A stretch of 64,000 bases of DNA from Pseudomonadota bacterium (GTDB taxonomy: Bacteria > Pseudomonadota > Gammaproteobacteria > Xanthomonadales > Rhodanobacteraceae), in NCBI GenBank assembly GCA_029561145.1, contig JAKQJM010000088.1, forward strand, positions 124,001-188,000. Direction: 5' to 3'. The position numbers and the translations under genes were made by a program. How positions within the stretch are numbered: position 1 is the stretch's first letter; every line of letters begins with the position of its first letter. Shown here piece after piece: positions 6,054-59,208 of the stretch. The notes beneath the pieces are model-generated. The model was not told the DNA's origin and ran no database searches. It saw nothing but the letters and a program-made list of their open reading frames with translations.

Positions 6054-6149
6054 GGCGCAACGGGGCTTTGGCGGCTCATCAGCGGTTGAAAAGCGCTGCG
6101 ATGATCCCCACCAGCAGGGCAGCTCAGACTTTTCCCGAGGCCCTCGCCG

Positions 6150-8024
6150 ATGACTGCCACCACCGCTGAAACCCGCAAGTTCGAAGCCGAAGTTGCACAG
6201 GTGCTTCACCTTGTCACCCATTCGCTCTATTCGCACAAGGAAATCTTCCTGCGCGAACTCGTTTCGAATGCCTCCGATGCCTGCGACAAGCTGCGTTTCG
6301 AATCGATCGCGCATCCCGAGTGGGTGGCGAATGATCCAGAACTGCGCATCGACATCTCGATCGATAAAGACGCACGCACGCTGAGCGTCCACGACAACGG
6401 CATCGGCATGAGTCGCGCGGAGCTGGTTGCGAATCTCGGCACGATCGCGAGCTCTGGAACGCGTCGTTACCTGGAATCCCTGACCGCCGAGAACAAGGCC
6501 GATAGCCGCCTGATTGGCCAGTTCGGTGTCGGTTTTTATTCTGCGTTCGTCGTCGCCGACAAGGTCACTGTTGTCAGTCGTCGGGCCGGCAGCGAGGCGT
6601 CGGAGAGCGTGCGCTGGGAAAGTGACGGAAAGGGCGAGTACACGCTCGAAACTGTCAACGTCGACCGGCAGGGCACGACGGTCACGCTGCACCTGAAGGA
6701 AGACGAAAGCGAGTTCCTCGAATCCTGGAAGATCCGTAGCCTGGTTTCGCGCTACTCGGACCATATCGGCTTCCCGATCCGCATGCCGAAGGAAGTGGAT
6801 GGCAAGCCTGATGACGAATGGGAGGCTGTCAACTCGGCGTCCGCCTTGTGGACGCGTTCGAAGAACGAGCTCAAGGACGAGGAATACCAGAATTTCTACA
6901 AGTCGCTCAGCCACGACTTCAACGATGCGCTGAGCTGGACTCACAATCGCGTCGAAGGCAACCAGAACTTCACCTCGCTGCTGTACGTTCCGGCCAAGGC
7001 GCCCTTCGATTTCATGAATGGTCGCGAGGAGCGCAAGGGGCTCAAGCTCTATATCCGCCGTGTCTTCATCATGGATGCGAGCGAACAGTTGTTGCCGGCG
7101 TATCTGCGTTTCGTGCGTGGAGTCGTCGATTCCGATGACTTGCCGCTCAATGTCAGTCGCGAAATCCTGCAGCAGAACCGCCAGGTCGAACGGATCAAGG
7201 GAGCCTGCACCAAGCGCGTGCTCGATCTGCTCGACAAGCTCGCCAAGGACGAGGCCGACAAGTACACGACGTTCTGGAGCGCGTTTGGCGGTGTCCTCAA
7301 GGAAGGTATTGCCGAGGATGCAAGCAACCGCGAGCGCATCGCCAAGCTCCTGCGCTTCGCCTCGACGCATTCCGAAGGCGCGGCACCGACCGTGGCGCTC
7401 GATGACTACATCGGCCGCATGCAGGCCGGGCAGGAAATCATCTGGTACATCACGGCCGATTCCCATGCGGCAGCCAAGGGCAGCCCGCAGCTGGAGTCAC
7501 TGCGGGCCAAGGGCGTTGAAGTCCTTCTGATGTCGGATCGCATCGATGAATGGATGGCGGGCTACCTGACCGAATACGCGGGCAAGAAACTGCGCCATAT
7601 CGGCAAGGGCGAGATCGAACTGGATTCGGCGGATGCGGAAGCACACAAGGCCAGCGAGGAAGCGGCTTCCGGTGTCGTCGCCAAACTCAAGGAATTGCTC
7701 GGTGCACGGGTCAGTGATGTGAAGGTCAGCCGTCGCCTTACCGAATCGCCGTCGTGCGTGGTGCTCGACGAATACGACATGGCCTTGCACCTGCGTCGCG
7801 TGCTCAAGCAATCTGGCCACGAGATGCCCGATTCGGCACCAGTGCTCGAGATCAATCCGGCGCACGCCCTGGTCAAGCGTCTGGAGACCGAGACCGACGA
7901 TGCCCGATCCAACGATCTCGCCCTGTTGCTGCTCGAACAGGCCCAGGTTGCAGAAGGGGCGCAGCTCGATGACCCGGCAGCGTTTGTGCAGCGTGTGAAC
8001 CGCGTCATTCTCGGAATGGATTGA
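6150..8024 (+). CDS. htpG: Molecular chaperone HtpG (Hsp90)
   Basis: A 624-residue protein, the same length as the E. coli family member. The GHKL ATPase motifs are all present: NASDA (40-44), DNGIGM (82-87) and GQFGVGFYS (123-131). The middle domain carries the conserved VDSDDLPLNVSREILQ block, with dimerisation sequence at the C-terminus (DEYDMALHLRRVLK, NPAHALVKRL). Hsp90 dimers remodel client proteins in the cytosol. It stands alone between two intrinsic terminators; I cannot pick out a heat-shock promoter with confidence. Confidence 0.98.
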   Translation: MTATTAETRKFEAEVAQVLHLVTHSLYSHKEIFLRELVSNASDACDKLRFESIAHPEWVANDPELRIDISIDKDARTLSVHDNGIGMSRAELVANLGTIASSGTRRYLESLTAENKADSRLIGQFGVGFYSAFVVADKVTVVSRRAGSEASESVRWESDGKGEYTLETVNVDRQGTTVTLHLKEDESEFLESWKIRSLVSRYSDHIGFPIRMPKEVDGKPDDEWEAVNSASALWTRSKNELKDEEYQNFYKSLSHDFNDALSWTHNRVEGNQNFTSLLYVPAKAPFDFMNGREERKGLKLYIRRVFIMDASEQLLPAYLRFVRGVVDSDDLPLNVSREILQQNRQVERIKGACTKRVLDLLDKLAKDEADKYTTFWSAFGGVLKEGIAEDASNRERIAKLLRFASTHSEGAAPTVALDDYIGRMQAGQEIIWYITADSHAAAKGSPQLESLRAKGVEVLLMSDRIDEWMAGYLTEYAGKKLRHIGKGEIELDSADAEAHKASEEAASGVVAKLKELLGARVSDVKVSRRLTESPSCVVLDEYDMALHLRRVLKQSGHEMPDSAPVLEINPAHALVKRLETETDDARSNDLALLLLEQAQVAEGAQLDDPAAFVQRVNRVILGMD

Positions 8025-22581: not shown

Positions 22582-22980
22582 GTGAGCAAGCAGATCAAAG
22601 TGATGAAAACGGTCAAGCCAGGCCCGAGCGCATCGGTCGACAAGGTCCAGCAGGTTTGGCTGGCTGGTCTCGGCGCATTCTCGATCGCGCAGAAGCAGGG
22701 CAAGGTGATCCTTGACGGAATGATCAACGAAGGACGTTCATTCCAGTTGCGTACCGACAAGCTTGCGCGCAAGGTTTCGGGCGAGATCAAGGCAGTCGCG
22801 GAAACGCGCATGGCGCCGGTCAAGCTCCGCCTTGCGGCACTGCGCAGCGATGCCGAAGCGAAGATCGAACAGGGTGTGGGCCGCCTGATGTCATATGCGG
22901 GGATCCCGTCCAAGGCCGATGTCGACTCCCTGATTGCACGCGTCGACAAGCTTTCGCGCCAGTTGCGCGCTACCAGGTAG
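22582..22980 (+). CDS. Phasin family protein
   Basis: A 132-residue phasin: VDKVQQVWLAGLGAFSIAQKQGK at the N-terminus, then an amphipathic helical body ending in VDSLIARVDKLSRQLR. Phasins coat polyhydroxyalkanoate or other lipid granules. The start is GTG with an AGGAGA site eight bases upstream; an earlier in-frame start lacks one. It shares the WLAGLGAF core with the longer phasin at 26242-26895. A terminator follows. Confidence 0.88.
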   Translation: MSKQIKVMKTVKPGPSASVDKVQQVWLAGLGAFSIAQKQGKVILDGMINEGRSFQLRTDKLARKVSGEIKAVAETRMAPVKLRLAALRSDAEAKIEQGVGRLMSYAGIPSKADVDSLIARVDKLSRQLRATR

Positions 22981-23000
22981 TTCTCTGGCAGGATTCGAAA

Positions 23001-23028
23001 AAGCGGCCGCCTTGAGCGGCCGTTTTTC
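23001..23028 (+). terminator. Terminator after the phasin gene
   Basis: A 10-bp stem, AAGCGGCCGC (23001-23010) with GCGGCCGTTT (23016-23025), one G-U pair, loop CTTGA, T-run to 23027. It also separates the convergent TetR gene. Confidence 0.85.
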
Positions 23029-23037
23029 GTTGTGCAC

Positions 23038-23670
23038 TCAGCGCAGGTAGGCCGCGGCCAGCGTATTCAGATGCAGGCGTTCCGAGTCGCGCAGGAAGGG
23101 AGCGATAAGCATCATGACCTGATGGATGCCCCGGCCGACATCGAGCTGGCCCGATTCGTTCTTGCCGTGCCGCACGGCGTCGAAATTCAACCAGAACGTG
23201 GCTACCAGCACGATGTTCTCCGCGGTTGCGCGGATCTCGTCGGCGCTGGCCCGGAAAATTCCGGCGGCGGCAAGACCGCGCATGACCGATTCCGCGTTTT
23301 CCGACGCACGCTTGAGGATGCGCGCGAAATGCAGGCGCAACTTGCGGTTGCGCGAAAGGATGTCGACAAGATCGCGATAGACGAAGCGGAAATCCCACAT
23401 GCACTCGAAGATCAGATGCAGTTGCAGCCAGACATCCTCGAGGTTCGGTAATCGATCACCGGGGGTAACCAGGGCTTCGTCGATACGCTGTTCATAGCGT
23501 GCGAACAACTGCCCGATGATGTCGTCCTTGTTCCGGTAGTGGTAGTAGAGATTGCCGGGGCTGATGCCCAGTTCGTCGGCGATGTGGTTGGTCGTTACGT
23601 TCGGCTCGCCCTGGCCGTTGAACATCGCCAACGCGGTTTCAAGAATGAGCTCGCGTGTCTGGCGCGCCAT
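23038..23670 (-). CDS. TetR-family regulator, PhaD-like
   Basis: A 210-residue TetR protein with HTH TTNHIADELGISPGNLYYHY (26-45). The stretch ILETALAMFNGQGEPNVTT and the ISPGNLYYHY helix strongly resemble the PhaD regulators of Pseudomonas PHA loci, as I remember them. PhaD senses an acyl-CoA-type ligand and controls phasin genes. ATG at 23670 begins MARQTREL; the longer open frame upstream overlaps the ACBP gene. It is 28 bases downstream of the ACBP gene on the same strand. PHA/lipid context supports the assignment, which still needs a tree. Confidence 0.85.
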   Translation of the reverse strand: MARQTRELILETALAMFNGQGEPNVTTNHIADELGISPGNLYYHYRNKDDIIGQLFARYEQRIDEALVTPGDRLPNLEDVWLQLHLIFECMWDFRFVYRDLVDILSRNRKLRLHFARILKRASENAESVMRGLAAAGIFRASADEIRATAENIVLVATFWLNFDAVRHGKNESGQLDVGRGIHQVMMLIAPFLRDSERLHLNTLAAAYLR

Positions 23671-23698
23671 GGGAAATGCCGAGCCGGAGACGCCGTGC

Positions 23699-23956
23699 TC
23701 AGGCGCGCAGCTTGGCGACCAGGTCGATGTATTTCTGCATCGCTTCGTTCTTGGCTGTGCCCTTGAGCTTCGCCCATGCCTCGTACTTGGCTGTTCCGAC
23801 GAAATCGAAGAAGCCGGGTTTGGGGCCGGCAACATCACCGTCGGCGCCTTGCTTGTAGAGCGCGTAGAGCTTCAACAGGGTGTCGTTGTCTGGACGATCG
23901 TCCAGCTTCTTGATGTCTTCGGCGGCTTTCTCGAAGCTGGCTTGAAGCTTGGACAT
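23699..23956 (-). CDS. Acyl-CoA-binding protein
   Basis: An 85-residue four-helix ACBP. Signature residues are present: LKLYALYKQGADGD, KPGFFDFVGTAKYEAWAKLKG and EAMQKYIDLVAKL. ACBPs hold long-chain acyl-CoA esters in the cytosol and deliver them to enzymes. Divergent from the fatty acyl-CoA reductase gene by 199 bases and upstream of the TetR gene in the same orientation. The position beside an acyl-CoA-consuming enzyme suggests substrate delivery; this is inference. Confidence 0.95.
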   Translation of the reverse strand: MSKLQASFEKAAEDIKKLDDRPDNDTLLKLYALYKQGADGDVAGPKPGFFDFVGTAKYEAWAKLKGTAKNEAMQKYIDLVAKLRA

Positions 23957-24155
23957 GGTATTCGGCCTGATTGGATGCGCCCCTGCGCCGCAACTTTCTA
24001 TCATGCACCCACAAGGCGGTCAACGCGACGGGCAGCACCGCGGCAAGTGCATGGAAACCCGTCCGGCGGACGATTATGCTGTCCATACGGTGGCGTCCGC
24101 GACCATCCGTGATGGCCGGATCTTCGTGGCCGATCAACCTGGACTGGAGTGGGAA

Positions 24156-26150
24156 ATGACATATTTCGTGACTGGCGCCACAGGCTTCATCGGTCGTCAC
24201 TTGCTGGAAAAATTGCTGTTGCGGAAAGGCCGGATCTACTGTCTGGTGCGCAAGGAATCGACTGCGAAGTTCGAAGCGCTGCGCGAGCGACTCGGTGCAG
24301 ACAAGGATCGCCTGATTGCGGTCAGCGGGGATCTGGGCAAGGCCCGGCTTGGCTTGACGCCGACGTCACTGAAGAATCTCGGCGGCAAGATCACCCATTT
24401 CTTCCATCTCGCGGCGCTGTACGATCTCGCTGCCGACGAAGCCAGCCAGGTGAAGGCCAATATCGACGGAACGCGCCATGCCGTGCAATTGGCTGAAGTA
24501 CTCAAGGCCGGCTGCTTCCATCACACCAGTTCGATCGCCGCAGCCGGCCTTTACCCGGGCGTGTTCCGCGAGGACATGTTCGATGAAGCGGAAGGCCTCG
24601 ACAATGTCTATTTCCGCACCAAGCACGATTCCGAGGGCATCGTCCGTTCGGAATGCAAGCGGCCATTCCGCATCTATCGCCCCGGCATCGTCATCGGCAA
24701 CTCGCAGACCGGTGAAATGGACAAGATCGACGGACCCTATTACTTCTTCCAGTTGATCAAGAAGATGCGCCAGGTCCTGCCGCCATGGATGCCAACGGTC
24801 GGGCTCGAAGGCGGGCGCTTGAACCTCGTTCCGGTGGACTGGGTCGCAGCGAGCATGGATCACATCGCGCATATCCCGAAGCTCGACAGCCAATGCTTCC
24901 ATCTGACCGATCCGGCGCCGTATCGAATCGGCGAAGTGCTCAACATCTTTGCTGACGCAGGACACGCGCCGAAGATGAGCATGCGCATCGACGCACGCAT
25001 GTTTGCATTCGTCCCGAGTGCGATCCGCCAGGCGCTGTCGAGCCTGCCGCCGGTGCGGCGCATGCTCAACGTGTTCCTGCGCGATTTCGGCATTCCGGCC
25101 GAGATCATGCGCTTCATCAACTATCCGACCCGGTTCGATACGCGTGAAACCGATCGCGCGCTTCGCGGCTCCAAAATCAAGCTGCCTAAGCTGCAGACCT
25201 ACGCGTGGCGTCTCTGGGACTACTGGGAGCGTCATCTCGACCCGGCCCTGTTCGTCGATCATTCGCTGTCCGGCAAGGTTCGGCGCAAGGTGGTCGTGAT
25301 CACGGGCGGATCATCAGGCATCGGCAAGGCCGTCGCCATCAAGGTCGCCGCGGCCGGGGCCAAGGTGGTCATCTGTGCGCGTGGCGAGGAGGAGCTTGCG
25401 GCGGCAAAGATGGAAATCGAAGGGGCGGGCGGCACCTGTCATACCTACAAGGTCGATCTTGCCGAACTGGCATCCTGCGATGCCTTCGTCAGTCAGGTCA
25501 CAGCGGATCACGGCAGCGTCGATATCCTGATCAACAATGCGGGTCGGTCGATTCGCCGCGCAATTGCGTCGAGCTACGATCGTTTCCATGATTTCGAACG
25601 CACGATGCAGCTCAACTATTTTGGTTCGCTGCGTTTGATTCTCGGCTTTCTGCCGAAGATGACCGAGCGCCATCGTGGCCACATCATCAACATTTCGTCG
25701 ATCGGCGTACTGACCAATGCTCCGCGATTCTCGGCCTATGTTTCGTCGAAGGCGGCGCTGGATGCGTTCTCGCGGTGTGCACAGGCCGAATTCTCCGATC
25801 TCGGCATCAACTTCACGACGATCAACATGCCACTCGTGAAGACACCGATGATCGCGCCGACCAAGATGTACGATTCGGTGCCGACGCTGAGCCCGGAGGA
25901 AGCCGCGGACCTCGTGGTAGAGGCGATCATCGAGCGACCGGTGCGTGTGGCCACGCGCACCGGAATCTTCGCGCAGCTGTTCTATTCGGTCTCTCCGCGC
26001 GCCTACGAGATCGTCATGAACACGGCGTTCCGCCTGTTCCCCGATTCATCCGCGGCGAAGGGCATCAAGGGCATTCGCCAGGAGATGCAGCAAGGGCCGT
26101 CTTCGGAACAGGTCGCGTTCGCGGCGTTGATGCGGGGCGTCCACTGGTAG
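24156..26150 (+). CDS. Two-domain fatty acyl-CoA reductase (SDR)
   Basis: A 664-residue protein with two Rossmann domains. The first (about 1-350) is an extended-SDR/thioester-reductase type with TGATGFIG (6-13) and YFRTKHDSEG. The second (about 375-600) is a classical SDR with TGGSSGIG (383-390), NNAGRS, and Y528-x3-K532 in YVSSKAA. This architecture and length match the alcohol-forming fatty acyl-CoA reductases of Marinobacter, which reduce acyl-CoA to aldehyde and then to alcohol. ATG at 24156 begins MTYFVTGATGF with GGAG upstream. Lipid neighbours support the role. It ends against a minus-strand phasin. Confidence 0.85.
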   Translation: MTYFVTGATGFIGRHLLEKLLLRKGRIYCLVRKESTAKFEALRERLGADKDRLIAVSGDLGKARLGLTPTSLKNLGGKITHFFHLAALYDLAADEASQVKANIDGTRHAVQLAEVLKAGCFHHTSSIAAAGLYPGVFREDMFDEAEGLDNVYFRTKHDSEGIVRSECKRPFRIYRPGIVIGNSQTGEMDKIDGPYYFFQLIKKMRQVLPPWMPTVGLEGGRLNLVPVDWVAASMDHIAHIPKLDSQCFHLTDPAPYRIGEVLNIFADAGHAPKMSMRIDARMFAFVPSAIRQALSSLPPVRRMLNVFLRDFGIPAEIMRFINYPTRFDTRETDRALRGSKIKLPKLQTYAWRLWDYWERHLDPALFVDHSLSGKVRRKVVVITGGSSGIGKAVAIKVAAAGAKVVICARGEEELAAAKMEIEGAGGTCHTYKVDLAELASCDAFVSQVTADHGSVDILINNAGRSIRRAIASSYDRFHDFERTMQLNYFGSLRLILGFLPKMTERHRGHIINISSIGVLTNAPRFSAYVSSKAALDAFSRCAQAEFSDLGINFTTINMPLVKTPMIAPTKMYDSVPTLSPEEAADLVVEAIIERPVRVATRTGIFAQLFYSVSPRAYEIVMNTAFRLFPDSSAAKGIKGIRQEMQQGPSSEQVAFAALMRGVHW

Positions 26151-26196
26151 GCGAGTGGATGCCGTCGACACCGAAGCGTCAAATCATGCGCGCATG

Positions 26197-26228
26197 AAAA
26201 AGCCCCTCGCCGTTCCGGGCGAGGGGCT
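26197..26228 (-). terminator. Terminator of the minus-strand granule operon
   Basis: AGCCCCTCGCC (26201-26211) pairs perfectly with GGCGAGGGGCT (26218-26228), loop of six. On the minus strand the stem runs into TTTTT. It ends the phasin/patatin/PHA-protein transcripts. Confidence 0.9.
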
Positions 26229-26241
26229 CCGCTTCGCGGTC

Positions 26242-26895
26242 CTACTTGGCGCCTGCCTTTTTCTTGCTTGCGGCGTTCCGTGCAACGGGCTTCTTCGCAA
26301 CCGGCTTCTTTGCCGGAGCGGCCGTCCGCTTGGCGCCGACGTGCTTGAGCTGCGCCGATTCGAGTTCACGGGCTACGTCGGCCAGCTCATCCTTGATGCG
26401 GGATACCGATCGCGTGGCGCTTGTGCGGCTGGTCGCCGGCTTGCTGACGGCCCTGGCGGCCGGTTTTGCATTGAGTTTGCTCACTTCGCGGGCGAGTTCC
26501 TCGATACGAGTGGTAAGGCCCTTGAGTTCGGTGCTGCCCGGAACACCAAGCCGGCTCAATGCGCGCGAGACACGATTTTCGAACACCTTTTCGAGCTTGT
26601 CCCAGGTCTCCTGGCTACGCTCCTTGACTTGACCAACCGCTGCCTCAACGGCCCCACGTGCTTCCTCGGCCTTGCCTGCGGTGAGCTTGCGCGTCTTCTG
26701 CTCGAGCGAGACGCCCTCGCGAACCAGGGCCTCGAACAGGCGTGTTCCCTCGTCCTGCGCCTTGGCGAACGCGCCCAGTCCGGCGAGCCAGATGTGCTGC
26801 GCGGACTCGACGATCGATTTTCCACCGGCGCGAGCCGAGGGCGTGCTGGCAGCTGGCGCGGCTTTGGATTTCAGCTTCGGCTTGGGCTTGGTCAT
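26242..26895 (-). CDS. PhaF-like phasin with histone H1-like tail
   Basis: A 217-residue protein. The N-terminal phasin part contains ESAQHIWLAGLGAFAKAQDEG and a long helical, coiled-coil-like body (about 25-125). The C-terminal third is Lys/Ala/Pro-rich with AKKPVAKKPVARN-type repeats like histone H1. That two-part design is the one of PhaF, which binds granules with one end and DNA with the other and helps partition granules at division. ATG at 26895 starts MTKPKPK; the frame stays open upstream without similarity. Confidence 0.85.
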   Translation of the reverse strand: MTKPKPKLKSKAAPAASTPSARAGGKSIVESAQHIWLAGLGAFAKAQDEGTRLFEALVREGVSLEQKTRKLTAGKAEEARGAVEAAVGQVKERSQETWDKLEKVFENRVSRALSRLGVPGSTELKGLTTRIEELAREVSKLNAKPAARAVSKPATSRTSATRSVSRIKDELADVARELESAQLKHVGAKRTAAPAKKPVAKKPVARNAASKKKAGAK

Positions 26896-26986
26896 TGCAG
26901 GGTTCCTTCGATGGGATGGGCACGGGATGCCCGGTTGGTTGCGCAGGTTAGTTCCGCTTCCTAGAGCAAGTAATCGATGCGGAAGA

Positions 26987-28294
26987 TCAGGAATGCACCG
27001 AGCTCGGCGCGGTTCGTTTTGTCGTGCGGCGCGTCGCCGATCTGGATCGGGCAGTGGCCGGGCTTTCGCGATCGATCGCGACATCGAGGTCGTCGAGTGC
27101 CCGATGCAGTTTCGAGGTGGCCTTCGAACGCCGTGGCGGTTTTCCGTCGAGACCGCCGAGCAGGGTACGCTCTGGATCGTCGAGCACGCGCGCGCGCAGT
27201 TGCAATCCGTGACGCTCGAGCAAGGGCCCGAGCGCGCGTCGATGCGTGCGCAAGTCCTTCAGGGTCGATTGATAGGCGTGCTCGGCGAGCCTCTTGCGGT
27301 GTGCGAAGCTGAAGATGTTGGTGAAGAACATCTCGGTGTCGTCGTCGTCAGGTTCGATCAGGAGCAGATCGGAACCGCTGTACTGGCGCTCGTACTTCGG
27401 GATGCTGGCCTGCATGCGCGACTGCAGCAGGGTGCGGAACATCTGCGAGAGGACCGCCGGCAAGCCGCCCTCGACGAGACTGCTGGGCGAGCTCTTGCCC
27501 AATGCATTGGCATGCGCCGTGTCGATGGGGACCAGCGGGTTGATTGCCAGCACGAGATCGGCGCCGGCATCCATTGCAACCGACGCATGCACGGTATGGC
27601 GCAAGGCTCCATCGACAAAGTACCTACCGTTGATCGCTACCGGTGGATAGAGGCCGGGCAGGGCGGAACTGGCTTCGATCGCGCGCGAGATCGGCACGTC
27701 ATCGTGGTCCTTGGTACCGAAGCGAACGGCCTGCCCGCTGTCGAGTTCCACCGCGACGATGACCAGCTTGCGCGCGAGCTCGCGAAAATCGTTGCTGCGC
27801 CCGTGCCCGGTATAGGCGTCGCGAAGGAACCGCTCGATCGCCTCATTGTCGAACAATCCGGTGGGCAGCAGGCTGCCCAGTTTGAGCAGGGTATCGGAAA
27901 CCCGCAGGTCGAACGGATGCCGGGCAAATTCGGCGAGACCGCCGAGCAGCAGGCGAGGCACTCCCCATAGCCGCCGCAGATACTCGTAGATGGCCGGCCG
28001 CACGAAGTTCTCGGGACGGAAATTGAACTGGTCGGAATCGCCGGTGATGAAGATGCGGCACAATTCGGCCGTGCTCAGGCGATTGGCCAGGCTGGCGGCG
28101 ACGTAGGCGCCAGAGCTGATGCCGACGTATACATCGAGGGCGTTCATGTCGAGCCCTTCGATCGCGTCCTCGAGCGCGCGGACTGCCCCGATCTCGAAGA
28201 TGCCGCCGATCGGGCCGCCCCCGGCGACAGCAAGGCCGATCTGCGGGCGTCGCGACCTTTTGACCGGTTTCCGCGCTGCCTTGATGACCAGCAT
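26987..28294 (-). CDS. Patatin-like phospholipase
   Basis: A 435-residue patatin-fold lipase. Oxyanion loop GGGPIGG (25-31), nucleophile S60 in GISSG (58-62) and catalytic D228 in DGA (228-230) are all present. The C-terminal 60 residues are basic (RRSKATSK, RSRSATRRTTKR). Patatins hydrolyse acyl esters, and some relatives act as PHA depolymerases. ATG at 28294 overlaps the stop of the upstream PHA-system gene (ATGA), so the two are coupled. The location among phasins suggests a granule or neutral-lipid substrate, by inference. Confidence 0.9.
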   Translation of the reverse strand: MLVIKAARKPVKRSRRPQIGLAVAGGGPIGGIFEIGAVRALEDAIEGLDMNALDVYVGISSGAYVAASLANRLSTAELCRIFITGDSDQFNFRPENFVRPAIYEYLRRLWGVPRLLLGGLAEFARHPFDLRVSDTLLKLGSLLPTGLFDNEAIERFLRDAYTGHGRSNDFRELARKLVIVAVELDSGQAVRFGTKDHDDVPISRAIEASSALPGLYPPVAINGRYFVDGALRHTVHASVAMDAGADLVLAINPLVPIDTAHANALGKSSPSSLVEGGLPAVLSQMFRTLLQSRMQASIPKYERQYSGSDLLLIEPDDDDTEMFFTNIFSFAHRKRLAEHAYQSTLKDLRTHRRALGPLLERHGLQLRARVLDDPERTLLGGLDGKPPRRSKATSKLHRALDDLDVAIDRESPATARSRSATRRTTKRTAPSSVHS

Positions 28295-28569
28295 CAGGCG
28301 ATCTGCTCGTCGAGATGGCGATTGATTTCGCGTTCGATCATCGGCTTCATCATGCCCATGACGAAGCCGAGGTCGGCGAATACGTGCACCTCGCCCTTCT
28401 CGAGGGCGATATGGCCATCGACGCCACTGCGCGAGAACGCAAGGGTGTTGCCTTCCCACGCGCAATCGAGATCGAATTCCTTGGCAATGGATTTGGCGAG
28501 CTTGTTGACCGCCTTGCGCGCTTCGGCAAGCGAAAGCTGGTGTTTGCGGCGGATATCGATTTTCGCCAT
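28294..28569 (-). CDS. Polyhydroxyalkanoic acid system family protein
   Basis: A 91-residue protein beginning MAKIDIRRKHQLS and containing AWEGNTLAFSRSGVDGHIAL and the C-terminal MKPMIEREINRHLDE. This matches the small PHA granule-region family described in PHA gene clusters (PHA_gran_rgn). Its biochemical role is not established. It starts the operon PHA protein, patatin, and probably the PhaF-like phasin (91 bases further on). Confidence 0.85.
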   Translation of the reverse strand: MAKIDIRRKHQLSLAEARKAVNKLAKSIAKEFDLDCAWEGNTLAFSRSGVDGHIALEKGEVHVFADLGFVMGMMKPMIEREINRHLDEQIA

Positions 28570-28771
28570 TTGGATTCTCCTGGTGCGGCAACGCTGGGGC
28601 GTCGCGCGGCGCCCGCTATGATGCCCTAGCCGGGCCAATCGCAGAAGCGTCCGACAGGGCCGAAGGGCAGCGTCGGGTCGCCTGACAGGCCTCTGGTCCG
28701 ATGCCGCCGGACAGGTGTCAGCGATCCCGCATCCTGATAAAGTGCCCGCAATTTCCACAATCCGTGCGCTG

Positions 28772-29599
28772 ATGCGACTGAGCTTTTCCAACGTTGAACA
28801 TGCGGACGTGCTCGTCGACAACGGCGTCACCGGTATTGGATCAGCGCAAGGAAATGCAGTCATGCTCGCGGCGGACGGAGTCATGCCGTGGCATGCGCGC
28901 CTCGTGATCGACAAGCGCGGCATGATCCTTGAGGTTCTCGACAAGCAGGCGCGTACCCACGTCAATGCGCGCCCGGTCGTCGAACGGGCATTGTTGCGAC
29001 TCGGCGATGTCATCAATTTCGACGCCGTCGCGGTCATGTTGAAGCCAGACAGCGATGCCATCATCGATACGCGCGTCCCGCCTGAAACATCGGTTGCGGA
29101 TGCATCGGAGGAAATCGGGCGCGTGGTCCTGCGCGGCGTGTCGGGAGCGCATTTCGGCAAGACCGTCAAGGTCGGGACGCGGCTGCTGATCGGCAGTGGA
29201 CCGAATGGCCTCGATCTCGACGAACCAGGCATGGCCGAGCGGCATGCGGTCATCGGCGCGAGCGACGACGCCATCCACCTGCGCGACCTTGGTTCGACCA
29301 ACGGCTCCGAGGTCAATGGCATCCGGGTCAGGAATGCCGTGCTCCATCCCGGCGACCAGATTTCATTTGGACGCAACCGCTTCGTGCTCGAGGCGCCCGG
29401 ATATCCGGGTCGCGGCCAAAGCATGCCGACGCCCGCCAACATGGCTCCCGCGATCACGCAGACATTCGACGCGATCCAGATGGCCGATCCAGCGCCATCC
29501 ACCGCTGACGACGGCGGCACCGGCATCTGGTGGTTGATCGCCGCTGCTGCACTGATCGGACTCGGCATCGCCGGCCTTATCTGGTTCGGCAATTACTGA
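28772..29599 (+). CDS. Double FHA-domain membrane protein
   Basis: A 275-residue protein with two forkhead-associated domains (about 18-95 and 115-205). The second has the canonical LGSTNGSEVNGIRV loop and HAVI; the first is degenerate (HARLVI and THVNARPV). A hydrophobic anchor lies at about 250-271, so the FHA domains face the cytosol with a C-terminal tail anchor. FHA domains bind phosphothreonine peptides, but no Ser/Thr kinase gene is in the window. ATG at 28772 was chosen; 19 more codons are open upstream. Its stop overlaps the msrQ stop tail to tail by seven bases. Confidence 0.85.
   Translation: MRLSFSNVEHADVLVDNGVTGIGSAQGNAVMLAADGVMPWHARLVIDKRGMILEVLDKQARTHVNARPVVERALLRLGDVINFDAVAVMLKPDSDAIIDTRVPPETSVADASEEIGRVVLRGVSGAHFGKTVKVGTRLLIGSGPNGLDLDEPGMAERHAVIGASDDAIHLRDLGSTNGSEVNGIRVRNAVLHPGDQISFGRNRFVLEAPGYPGRGQSMPTPANMAPAITQTFDAIQMADPAPSTADDGGTGIWWLIAAAALIGLGIAGLIWFGNY

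Positions 29600-55800: not shown

Positions 55801-59208
<3,408 letters not shown>

Follow-up and report, generated by a model that had tools for sequence, protein, structure and literature searches.

Known wax-ester and granule systems

In the wax-ester pathway of Marinobacter, a fatty acyl-CoA reductase (FAR; MAQU_2507 or MAQU_2220) works together with an enzyme of the WS/DGAT type, and the mycobacterial FAR homolog Rv3391 (650 aa; 40% identity to MAQU_2507 across 639 aa) uses NADPH to form aldehyde and alcohol (PMC3522743; PMC7744569). The window analyzed here, a stretch of 64,000 nucleotides from a member of the Rhodanobacteraceae, encodes a FAR of the size and kind of MAQU_2507 and Rv3391, and WS/DGAT occurs in the same genome, as in Marinobacter. 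In the block described here, the FAR gene is linked to those of a TetR protein, an acyl-CoA-binding protein (ACBP), phasins, a patatin and a PHA_gran_rgn protein.

Coat proteins of the TadA/HBHA kind are known from actinobacteria. They are structural proteins of neutral-lipid droplets in bacteria that store wax ester or triacylglycerol, which resembles the role proposed here for the phasins of the block, and they are tabulated apart from phasins (PMC8478749). The PhaF/PhaI/PhaD system of Pseudomonas putida (PMC3918157) resembles the block in the TIGR01837 membership of one phasin and in a TetR-family regulator nearby, but the block contains no identified PHA synthase or depolymerase, and 60 of the 112 FAR carriers examined here show no PHA synthase match.

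A further likeness is found in coastal sediment metagenomes, where beta-proteobacterial scaffolds carry WS/DGAT and ACBP; two of them also encode a "polyhydroxyalkanoic acid system family protein" along with a short-chain dehydrogenase (SDR) that shares 59% identity with MAQU_2507, and another WS/DGAT scaffold encodes a putative phasin (PMC10351704). These clusters thus share WS/DGAT, ACBP, a FAR-like SDR and "PHA" proteins with the present system. The phasin and the system protein are taken there as part of PHA metabolism, whereas here they are read as a coat of wax bodies; the parts of PMC10351704 covered contain neither a test against PHA synthase nor a wax-coat proposal, both of which are offered here. 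No description of a phasin coat on wax-ester bodies turned up in our literature searches.

Composition of the block

The seven genes named in the initial annotation were confirmed by curated family models, at the places given there. Phasin 1 (22603..22980, plus strand, about 125 aa) matches PF05597 with 76.3 bits against a cut-off of 28.8 and falls under the cut-off of TIGR01837 (62.9 versus 94.7 bits); its start is most likely the ATG at 22603 rather than the GTG at 22582 chosen previously. Phasin 2 (26242..26895, minus strand, 217 aa), which has a Lys/Ala/Pro-rich tail, scores 141 bits with PF05597 and also exceeds the TIGR01837 cut-off (115.8 bits), so that both phasins of the block lie over the PF05597 family cut-off. 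The ACBP (23699..23956, minus strand, 85 aa) scores 102 bits. The patatin-like hydrolase (26987..28294, minus strand, 435 aa, 98.5 bits) retains both catalytic motifs, GxSxG and DG[AG], as GISSG and DGA. The PHA_gran_rgn protein (28294..28569, minus strand, 91 aa) matches PF09650 with 105.6 bits and TIGR02610 with 95.3 bits (cut-off 40.25), and PF09650 has been counted as one of four phasin Pfam families (PMC5658603). PHA monomer-supply or polymerization genes were not identified in the block by family-model searches.

The TetR-family repressor (23038..23670, minus strand, 210 aa from the start MARQTRE) comprises TetR_N and PF13972 (148 bits), and its best solved chains are 3nnr and 3rh2. PhaF is a PF05597 protein, and PhaD is a TetR-family regulator encoded within a pha synthesis cluster. 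The earlier label "PhaD-like" lacks family support: no NCBIfam TetR model among those listed reached its cut-off, and the protein is of the TetR family, but the PhaE-PhaC genes of this genome lie on a different contig.

The reductase (24156..26150, plus strand, 664 aa) matches NF005539/PRK07201 with 980 bits (cut-off 549) over model positions 1-657 of 657. A single chain carries NAD_binding_4 at the N-terminus, with the motifs TGATGFIG (6) and YFRTK (152), and a short-chain dehydrogenase domain (adh_short) at the C-terminus, with TGGSSGIG (383) and YVSSK (528). In an alignment of 115 orthologs longer than 640 aa, among them the protein of the window, Y152, K156, Y528 and K532 are kept in 99% or more of the rows aligned, and the exact glycine patterns of the N- and C-terminal motifs occur in 103 and 96 orthologs, respectively. 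By family model and motifs, the enzyme matches the fatty-acyl kind of reductase.

Conservation of the FAR neighborhood

The initial annotation proposed to examine whether the block is conserved, and the neighbors of FAR proved to be conserved in the order and beyond. From 121 FAR loci, 115 distinct ones were obtained, of which 32 were dropped from the count because their flanks were too short; the remaining 83, the window's included, have flanks of 5 kb on both sides. At these loci, TetR was found no more than 6 kb from FAR in 74 cases, ACBP in 74, phasin in 68, patatin in 45, PF09650 in 44, a TPR protein in 44 and WS/DGAT in 16. Assuming roughly two PF05597 genes per 3.5 Mb of genome, simple arithmetic predicts a phasin within 6 kb by chance at less than 1% of FAR loci, so the clustering seen at 68/83 is far above chance. 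The arrangement WS - TPR - phasin - TetR - ACBP - FAR recurs at several loci in families f8, f10 and f11, and beta-proteobacterial loci, such as that of Chitinimonas taiwanensis (L147), have much of the same set in a different order. Lack of conserved order, together with grouping of the reductase among non-fatty-acyl SDRs in a tree, had been named beforehand as the outcome that would speak against the initial reading; as far as tested, by neighbors, family model and motifs, that outcome is not seen.

Some frequent neighbors lie outside the block in the window. An FHA-domain protein (28715..29599, plus strand, by family match) adjoins it and is a neighbor at 36/83 FAR loci, and the TPR protein (55801..56643, minus strand; 386 bits in the homolog search, at G000:C76:179804-180637) is located about 27 kb away. 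The FFLEELY-motif protein (NF047641), a neighbor at 39/83 loci elsewhere, was not found in the source genome in a search run without a positive control.

The linkage of phasin to FAR is not universal. The phasin/patatin/PHA_gran_rgn block adjoins FAR in genomes without a PHA synthase match, for example G112 and G067 (loci L044 and L046). Distances were compared in 37 of the 60 FAR genomes that lack PhaC, and among the matches listed a phasin lies within 6 kb of FAR in 24 and in none of the other 13. Nine of these 13 belong to family f9, and in three of the 13 (G070, G073 and G103) a phasin is found within 3 kb of WS/DGAT instead.

Co-occurrence with wax synthase and PHA synthase

As the initial annotation stated, neither PHA synthase nor WS/DGAT matched within the window. 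Both are present elsewhere in the source genome, which has a class III PHA synthase (PhaE-PhaC) and one WS/DGAT with the HHxxxDG motif (HHCYADG); genome-wide, such matches are confined to contigs C84 and C105, and the window belongs to C76. An SDR gene adjoining the WS/DGAT gene was considered as its operon partner and ruled out, because the two are convergent.

Of the 200 genomes examined from the order, 112 have FAR, counting seven with only partial matches (G025, G037, G105, G109, G114, G118 and G147). WS/DGAT occurs in all 112 and in 2 of the 88 others (G134 and, with an E value no better than 9.6e-4, G172); here negatives are genomes not among the matches listed, 68 of the negatives for FAR and 66 for WS/DGAT not being named individually. 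The PF05597 phasin likewise occurs in 112/112 FAR genomes, and in 30/88 others. This count uses a threshold of E below 1e-7, which gives 142 genomes; the Pfam cut-off gives 144, the two further genomes, probably G142 and G149, being FAR-negative and PhaC-positive.

PHA synthase was found in 52 of the 112 FAR genomes and is not seen in 60, a class defined with TIGR01836 (50 without a match and 10 with only E above 1e-5) and in which TIGR01838 exceeds its cut-off in none (one 20-bit match). PF05597 does not depend on PHA synthase in this class, being present in 60/60 of these FAR/WS genomes, with PF09650 in 58/60; the source genome itself does have PHA synthase. Among the 130 genomes with PHA synthase, a different phasin family, PF09361, exceeds its cut-off in 116 and is under it or absent in the other 14; it exceeds the cut-off in none of the 70 genomes without the enzyme. 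Of the 78 genomes that have PHA synthase and lack FAR, 29 carry PF05597, which is therefore not specific to wax; none of the 9 genomes lacking both PHA synthase and FAR/WS carries it. PHA_gran_rgn is found in 189/200 genomes and in 3 of those 9. Among 14 named control genomes, PF05597 matched two (Synechococcus and Methanosarcina, over cut-off in one) and PF09361 two (Caulobacter and Methanosarcina), so both models can give stray matches.

A tree-aware test on 61 genomes, which were hand-chosen for contrasts rather than at random, with frames chosen by similarity and families f7 and f9 absent, agrees with the genome counts on few independent events. In 10 independent contrasts for FAR, PF05597 changed in the same direction in 5.6 on average and in the opposite direction in 0 (sign test, median p 0.031, range 0.016-0.063). 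Among rows without PhaC, 3/3 pairs agree (p 0.25), and among rows with PhaC, 3.6/8 agree and none is opposite (p 0.125). PF09361 followed PhaC in 5.9 of 6 contrasts (median p 0.031, range 0.031-0.063). Agreement is mostly lacking for the crossed pairs (PF09361 in 2.0/10 FAR contrasts and PF05597 in 0.8/6 PhaC contrasts). PHA_gran_rgn moved with FAR in only 3/10 contrasts (p 0.25); given also its counts of 189/200 and 3/9, it is at most a marker of granules, whether of PHA or of wax.

A probable wax-ester module and its alternatives

From gene content and genome comparison, the block is probably a wax-ester synthesis and granule module, in which "PHA" granule proteins would coat wax-ester bodies, a localization that we infer. 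In such a module, ACBP would hold long-chain acyl-CoA, and FAR, using both active domains, would convert acyl-CoA with NADPH to aldehyde and then to fatty alcohol, which WS/DGAT would join to a second acyl-CoA to form wax ester. The product would gather in bodies coated with phasins and perhaps also with the PF09650 protein, and the stored lipid would be released by the patatin. The TetR protein may repress ACBP and FAR until acyl-CoA accumulates. Because triacylglycerol is also a possible product of WS/DGAT enzymes, the bodies may hold a mixture of lipids. The source genome's PHA synthase would belong to a separate system, paired with the PF09361 family in the genomes examined. The order may thus divide its phasin families by granule content, a view that we slightly favor, with PF09361 on PHA granules and PF05597, perhaps together with PF09650, as the native coat of wax-ester bodies. 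A phasin expressed in triacylglycerol-making bacteria can bind lipid inclusions (PMC6273058).

The initial annotation saw a shared lipid-granule program that diverts acyl-CoA between polyester and wax. The locus does look like a lipid-granule locus with conserved neighbors; the diversion is not borne out, as FAR is tied to WS/DGAT (112/112) and not to PHA synthase (52/112). With the block beside FAR in genomes without PHA synthase, and PHA synthase accompanied by PF09361, the polyester half of the reading is unneeded. An unlikely yet serious alternative is that PHA and wax bodies share a single set of granule proteins and a single regulator, which determine how acyl-CoA is divided between the two. 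It draws on the presence of both synthases in the source genome and on the wide occurrence of PHA_gran_rgn, and the coat proteins may have a dual use, given PF05597 in 29/78 genomes with PhaC and no FAR, the case of G170, of the window's genus, where about 8.4 kb separate the end of PhaC, in a PhaE-PhaC pair, from the FAR that follows, and alphaproteobacterial WS/DGAT regions described as containing mainly PHA metabolism genes (PMC10351704). It is opposed by the 60 genomes in which FAR, WS/DGAT and PF05597 occur together without a PHA synthase match, by PhaC contrasts that barely shift PF05597 but do shift PF09361, and by the lack of any identified PHA monomer-supply or polymerization gene in the block.

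It is improbable that the phasins and the PF09650 protein are instead general stress or nucleoid-associated helpers kept by FAR/WS lineages, because co-occurrence with FAR/WS is complete over 112 genomes, PF05597 is missing from all nine genomes with neither system, and the linkage of phasin to FAR is close; the tail of phasin 2, the weak match of a WS-linked phasin (L117) to a histone-H1-like model (21 bits, cut-off 80) and the title of PMC5658603, which calls phasins multipurpose, are what such a role would explain. Least probable is that the reductase is some other two-domain SDR. None of the 21 solved chains listed spans both of its domains, which leaves room for this view, but the NF005539 score, the conserved double active site, the invariant pairing with WS/DGAT and the activity of the mycobacterial homolog all argue for a fatty acyl-CoA reductase.

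If the wax-ester reading is true, many annotated genes bear a misleading name (PhaF, "PHA granule protein" or "PHA system protein"), and many "PHA" annotations need correction. Wax-ester engineering would then have granule proteins and a candidate regulator at its disposal, and the question of a wax-body coat would be directly testable in members without PHA synthase.

Transcription units and promoter region

The strand layout implies at least four transcription units: phasin 1 (plus), TetR-ACBP (minus), FAR (plus) and PHA_gran_rgn-patatin-phasin 2 (minus). Of the initial description of the block, the seven genes stand and the bounding terminators do not, since two clear hairpins sit inside the block and not at its edges. 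One, at 22998..23027 where the phasin 1 and TetR genes converge, is flanked by A and T runs and is terminator-like (a minus-strand site in the scan, with 8 pairs, 7 of them GC). The other, at 26201..26228 between FAR and phasin 2, is followed by a T run and would serve the minus-strand genes; it was found by eye and is absent from the scan list. Terminator-like sites numbered 11 in the scan and 7.3 (sd 3.1) in shuffled sequence. A single operon is ruled out by the four strand groups and the two internal hairpins.

ACBP and FAR diverge from a putative promoter region at 23957..24155. Expectation-maximization (EM) motif searches of 94 and 92 intergenic sequences yielded no convincing palindrome as a TetR operator. 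A conserved -35/-10-like element faces ACBP, with a model weight of 0.9 where a TetR gene is close (62 sequences) and 0.4 in the 30 others, and the element CTCTGGCAA was found in the same kind of search in 0.5 of the 62 intergenic sequences with a close TetR gene.

Gene content and borders of the locus

The locus is best described as a predicted wax-ester module, a kind of pathway that is already known. What is new is that the "PHA" granule proteins of its seven-gene block track wax synthesis more than PHA synthesis, and that another phasin family of the genomes examined shows the reverse pattern, following PHA synthesis more than wax synthesis.

The seven genes (approximately 22582-28569) were confirmed by Pfam and NCBIfam searches, each above its own family's Pfam cut-off: a phasin (PF05597), a TetR regulator (PF00440 and PF13972), an acyl-CoA-binding protein (ACBP; PF00887), a fatty acyl-CoA reductase (FAR; 24156-26150, forward strand), a second phasin (PF05597), a patatin and a PHA_gran_rgn protein (PF09650, TIGR02610). 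FAR, of 664 aa, consists of NAD_binding_4 followed by adh_short; its match to NF005539 (PRK07201) is full-length and scores 980 bits, and at least 99% of aligned rows conserve the YxxxK residues of both domains. Its nearest named records, within the best 80 of at least 588 candidates, are from Lysobacterales bacterium 63-13 (90%) and a Dokdonella sp. MAG (88%), which makes a Dokdonella-like source organism probable. The gene content reported in the initial annotation stands, but the terminators that it placed at the borders of the block were not confirmed; two hairpins sit within the block. A reading of the seven genes as a single operon was also rejected. Upstream lie ZipA (Pfam/NCBIfam) and, by our own reading, SMC; downstream, an FHA-domain protein identified by Pfam (28715-29599, forward strand) is followed, in our reading of the open reading frames, by MsrQ and MsrP, which often come next in other loci as well.

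The PHA synthase (PhaC) and wax synthase (WS/DGAT) missing from the window, for which a genome-wide search had been proposed, are both encoded elsewhere in the source assembly (3.6 Mb, 149 contigs). A class III PhaC (TIGR01836, 550 bits) on contig C84 adjoins PhaE (TIGR01834, 155 bits; cut-off 154.95), and a single protein on contig C105 carries both WS/DGAT domains and the motif HHCYADG. A PF09361 phasin is present on contig C34 (45 bits). On C105 (locus L004, approximately 6103-6915, forward strand), a single-domain short-chain dehydrogenase with weak resemblance to a mycolate reductase model (184 bits; cut-off 380) is convergent with the genome's sole WS/DGAT match. In another genome from the genus of the window (G170, C2:602355-611827), a class III PhaC ends approximately 8.4 kb before FAR, an arrangement from which the window's genome differs.

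Distribution of granule proteins with wax and PHA synthesis

Co-occurrence was scored for every family in one set of 200 genomes from the order, each at least 90% complete. FAR occurs in 112 genomes, WS/DGAT in 114 (113 above cut-off) and PHA_gran_rgn in 189; PF05597 is found in 165 at E 1e-3 (144 above cut-off), PF09361 in 121 (116 above cut-off), and the TIGR01836 model of PHA synthase matches 140 at E 1e-3 (114 above cut-off). PhaC was scored present in 130 genomes, comprising the 114 of class III and 16 with clear class I/II-like matches, and 10 weak matches (E > 1e-5) were scored absent. Every one of the 112 FAR genomes has WS/DGAT, which occurs without FAR in G134 and, at E 9.6e-4, in G172.

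All 60 genomes with FAR and without PhaC carry PF05597, and none has PF09361 beyond two weak matches; TIGR01838 is above cut-off in none of these 60 (one 20-bit match). Two of them, G112 and G067, carry the block and are probably Arenimonas-like, judging from the genes around it. With both enzymes (n = 52), PF05597 is present in 52 and PF09361 above cut-off in 49. Genomes with PhaC and without FAR (n = 78) have PF05597 in 29 and PF09361 above cut-off in 67, and among the 10 with neither enzyme PF05597 occurs once, in G134 together with WS/DGAT, and PF09361 is above cut-off in none. In control genomes, PF05597 and PF09361 each matched 2 of 14, and WS/DGAT 0 of 14.

Fisher tests on these tables ignore kinship, and relatedness was examined on an SMC protein tree of 61 chosen genomes. 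Over 10 independent FAR contrasts, PF05597 changes in the same direction in 5.6 on average and never in the opposite one (sign test, median p 0.031, range 0.016-0.063); over 6 PhaC contrasts, PF09361 does so in 5.9 (median p 0.031, range 0.031-0.063). The crossed pairs give 2.0 of 10 for FAR and PF09361 and 0.8 of 6 for PhaC and PF05597. Judging from these contrast counts, the split of phasin families between wax and PHA synthesis is supported, with few independent events beneath it. When the rows are divided by PhaC, those lacking it yield just 3 FAR contrasts, in all of which PF05597 goes in the same direction (p 0.25); in those that have it, PF05597 follows FAR in 3.6 of 8, with none opposite (p 0.125). 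PHA_gran_rgn follows FAR in 3 of 10 contrasts, with none opposite (p 0.25).

Physical linkage was compared, over the listed phasin matches, in 37 of the 60 FAR genomes without PhaC. A phasin lies within 6 kb of FAR in 24 of them; nine of the remaining 13 belong to family f9. Three of the 13 (G070:C9, G073:C27 and G103:C32) instead have a PF05597 phasin less than 3 kb from WS/DGAT, on a contig different from that of FAR, and have no PHA synthase match.

Possible roles and precedents

In the module as predicted, ACBP would feed FAR, the phasins and perhaps also the PF09650 protein would coat wax bodies, the patatin may mobilize lipid and the TetR regulator may sense acyl-CoA. According to the portions of the sources available, the reductase MAQU_2507 converts acyl-CoA/ACP to alcohol (PMC3522743, PMC7744569), Rv3391 produces aldehyde and alcohol with NADPH (PMC3522743), and the phasin PhaP1 can reach TAG inclusions when expressed in TAG makers (PMC6273058). 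PF09650 is one of four phasin Pfam families in the part available of a review (PMC5658603), in whose text a term search found neither "wax" nor "triacylglycerol." In literature on phasins, wax ester/TAG inclusions and PHA-system proteins that included few subscription papers, the sole close precedent, itself available in part, describes WS/DGAT regions of Alphaproteobacteria that contain genes of PHA metabolism (PMC10351704). Like the block, its scaffolds bring together ACBP, FAR and PHA-named proteins, there with WS/DGAT; the passages available assign the PHA-named proteins to PHA metabolism, whereas a coat on wax bodies is proposed here.

Conserved and occasional neighbors of FAR

The neighborhood was compared in 121 loci (115 distinct), namely 40 from genomes of the order, 80 named loci and the window; because the named loci are the best 80 of at least 588 candidates, they favor close relatives. 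Neighbors were counted, using profiles derived from these same loci, in the 83 loci with at least 5 kb on either side of FAR. In this sample, which includes loci from those best 80 of at least 588, TetR and ACBP are each found at most 6 kb from FAR in 74 of 83 loci, a phasin in 68, the patatin in 45, PHA_gran_rgn and a TPR protein in 44 each, an FFLEELY-motif protein in 39, the FHA protein in 36, an Mrr_cat protein (cluster c10) in 19 and WS/DGAT in 16. In several f8, f10 and f11 loci the order WS-TPR-phasin-TetR-ACBP-FAR recurs, and FAR is often followed there by patatin, FFLEELY or PHA_gran_rgn; loci of Chitinimonas, Burkholderiales and Chromatiales hold much of the same gene set in a partly different order. 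The TPR protein, which in the window's genome lies approximately 27 kb from the block (55801-56643, reverse strand), is a candidate for a further part of the module.

The two best-matching solved relatives of the window's TetR are 3nnr and 3rh2, the former from Marinobacter, a genus that makes wax esters. Within the close TetR group, most of the regions between ACBP and FAR (23957-24155 in the window) conserve an ACBP-facing TTGACC element with a -10-like partner. Approximately half of this group has CTCTGGCAA upstream of FAR, which is absent from 23957-24155 of the window as read.

The FFLEELY-motif protein, which corresponds to NF047641 in the single member tested (L132), gave no match in the window's genome in a search run without a positive control. 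It lies near or between patatin and PHA_gran_rgn in loci L088, L094, L102, L117, L132, L137, L140, L147 and L152. The Mrr_cat protein, whose domain resembles restriction endonucleases, is located between FAR and the second phasin in several f2 genomes (loci L043, L044, L045, L046 and L048).
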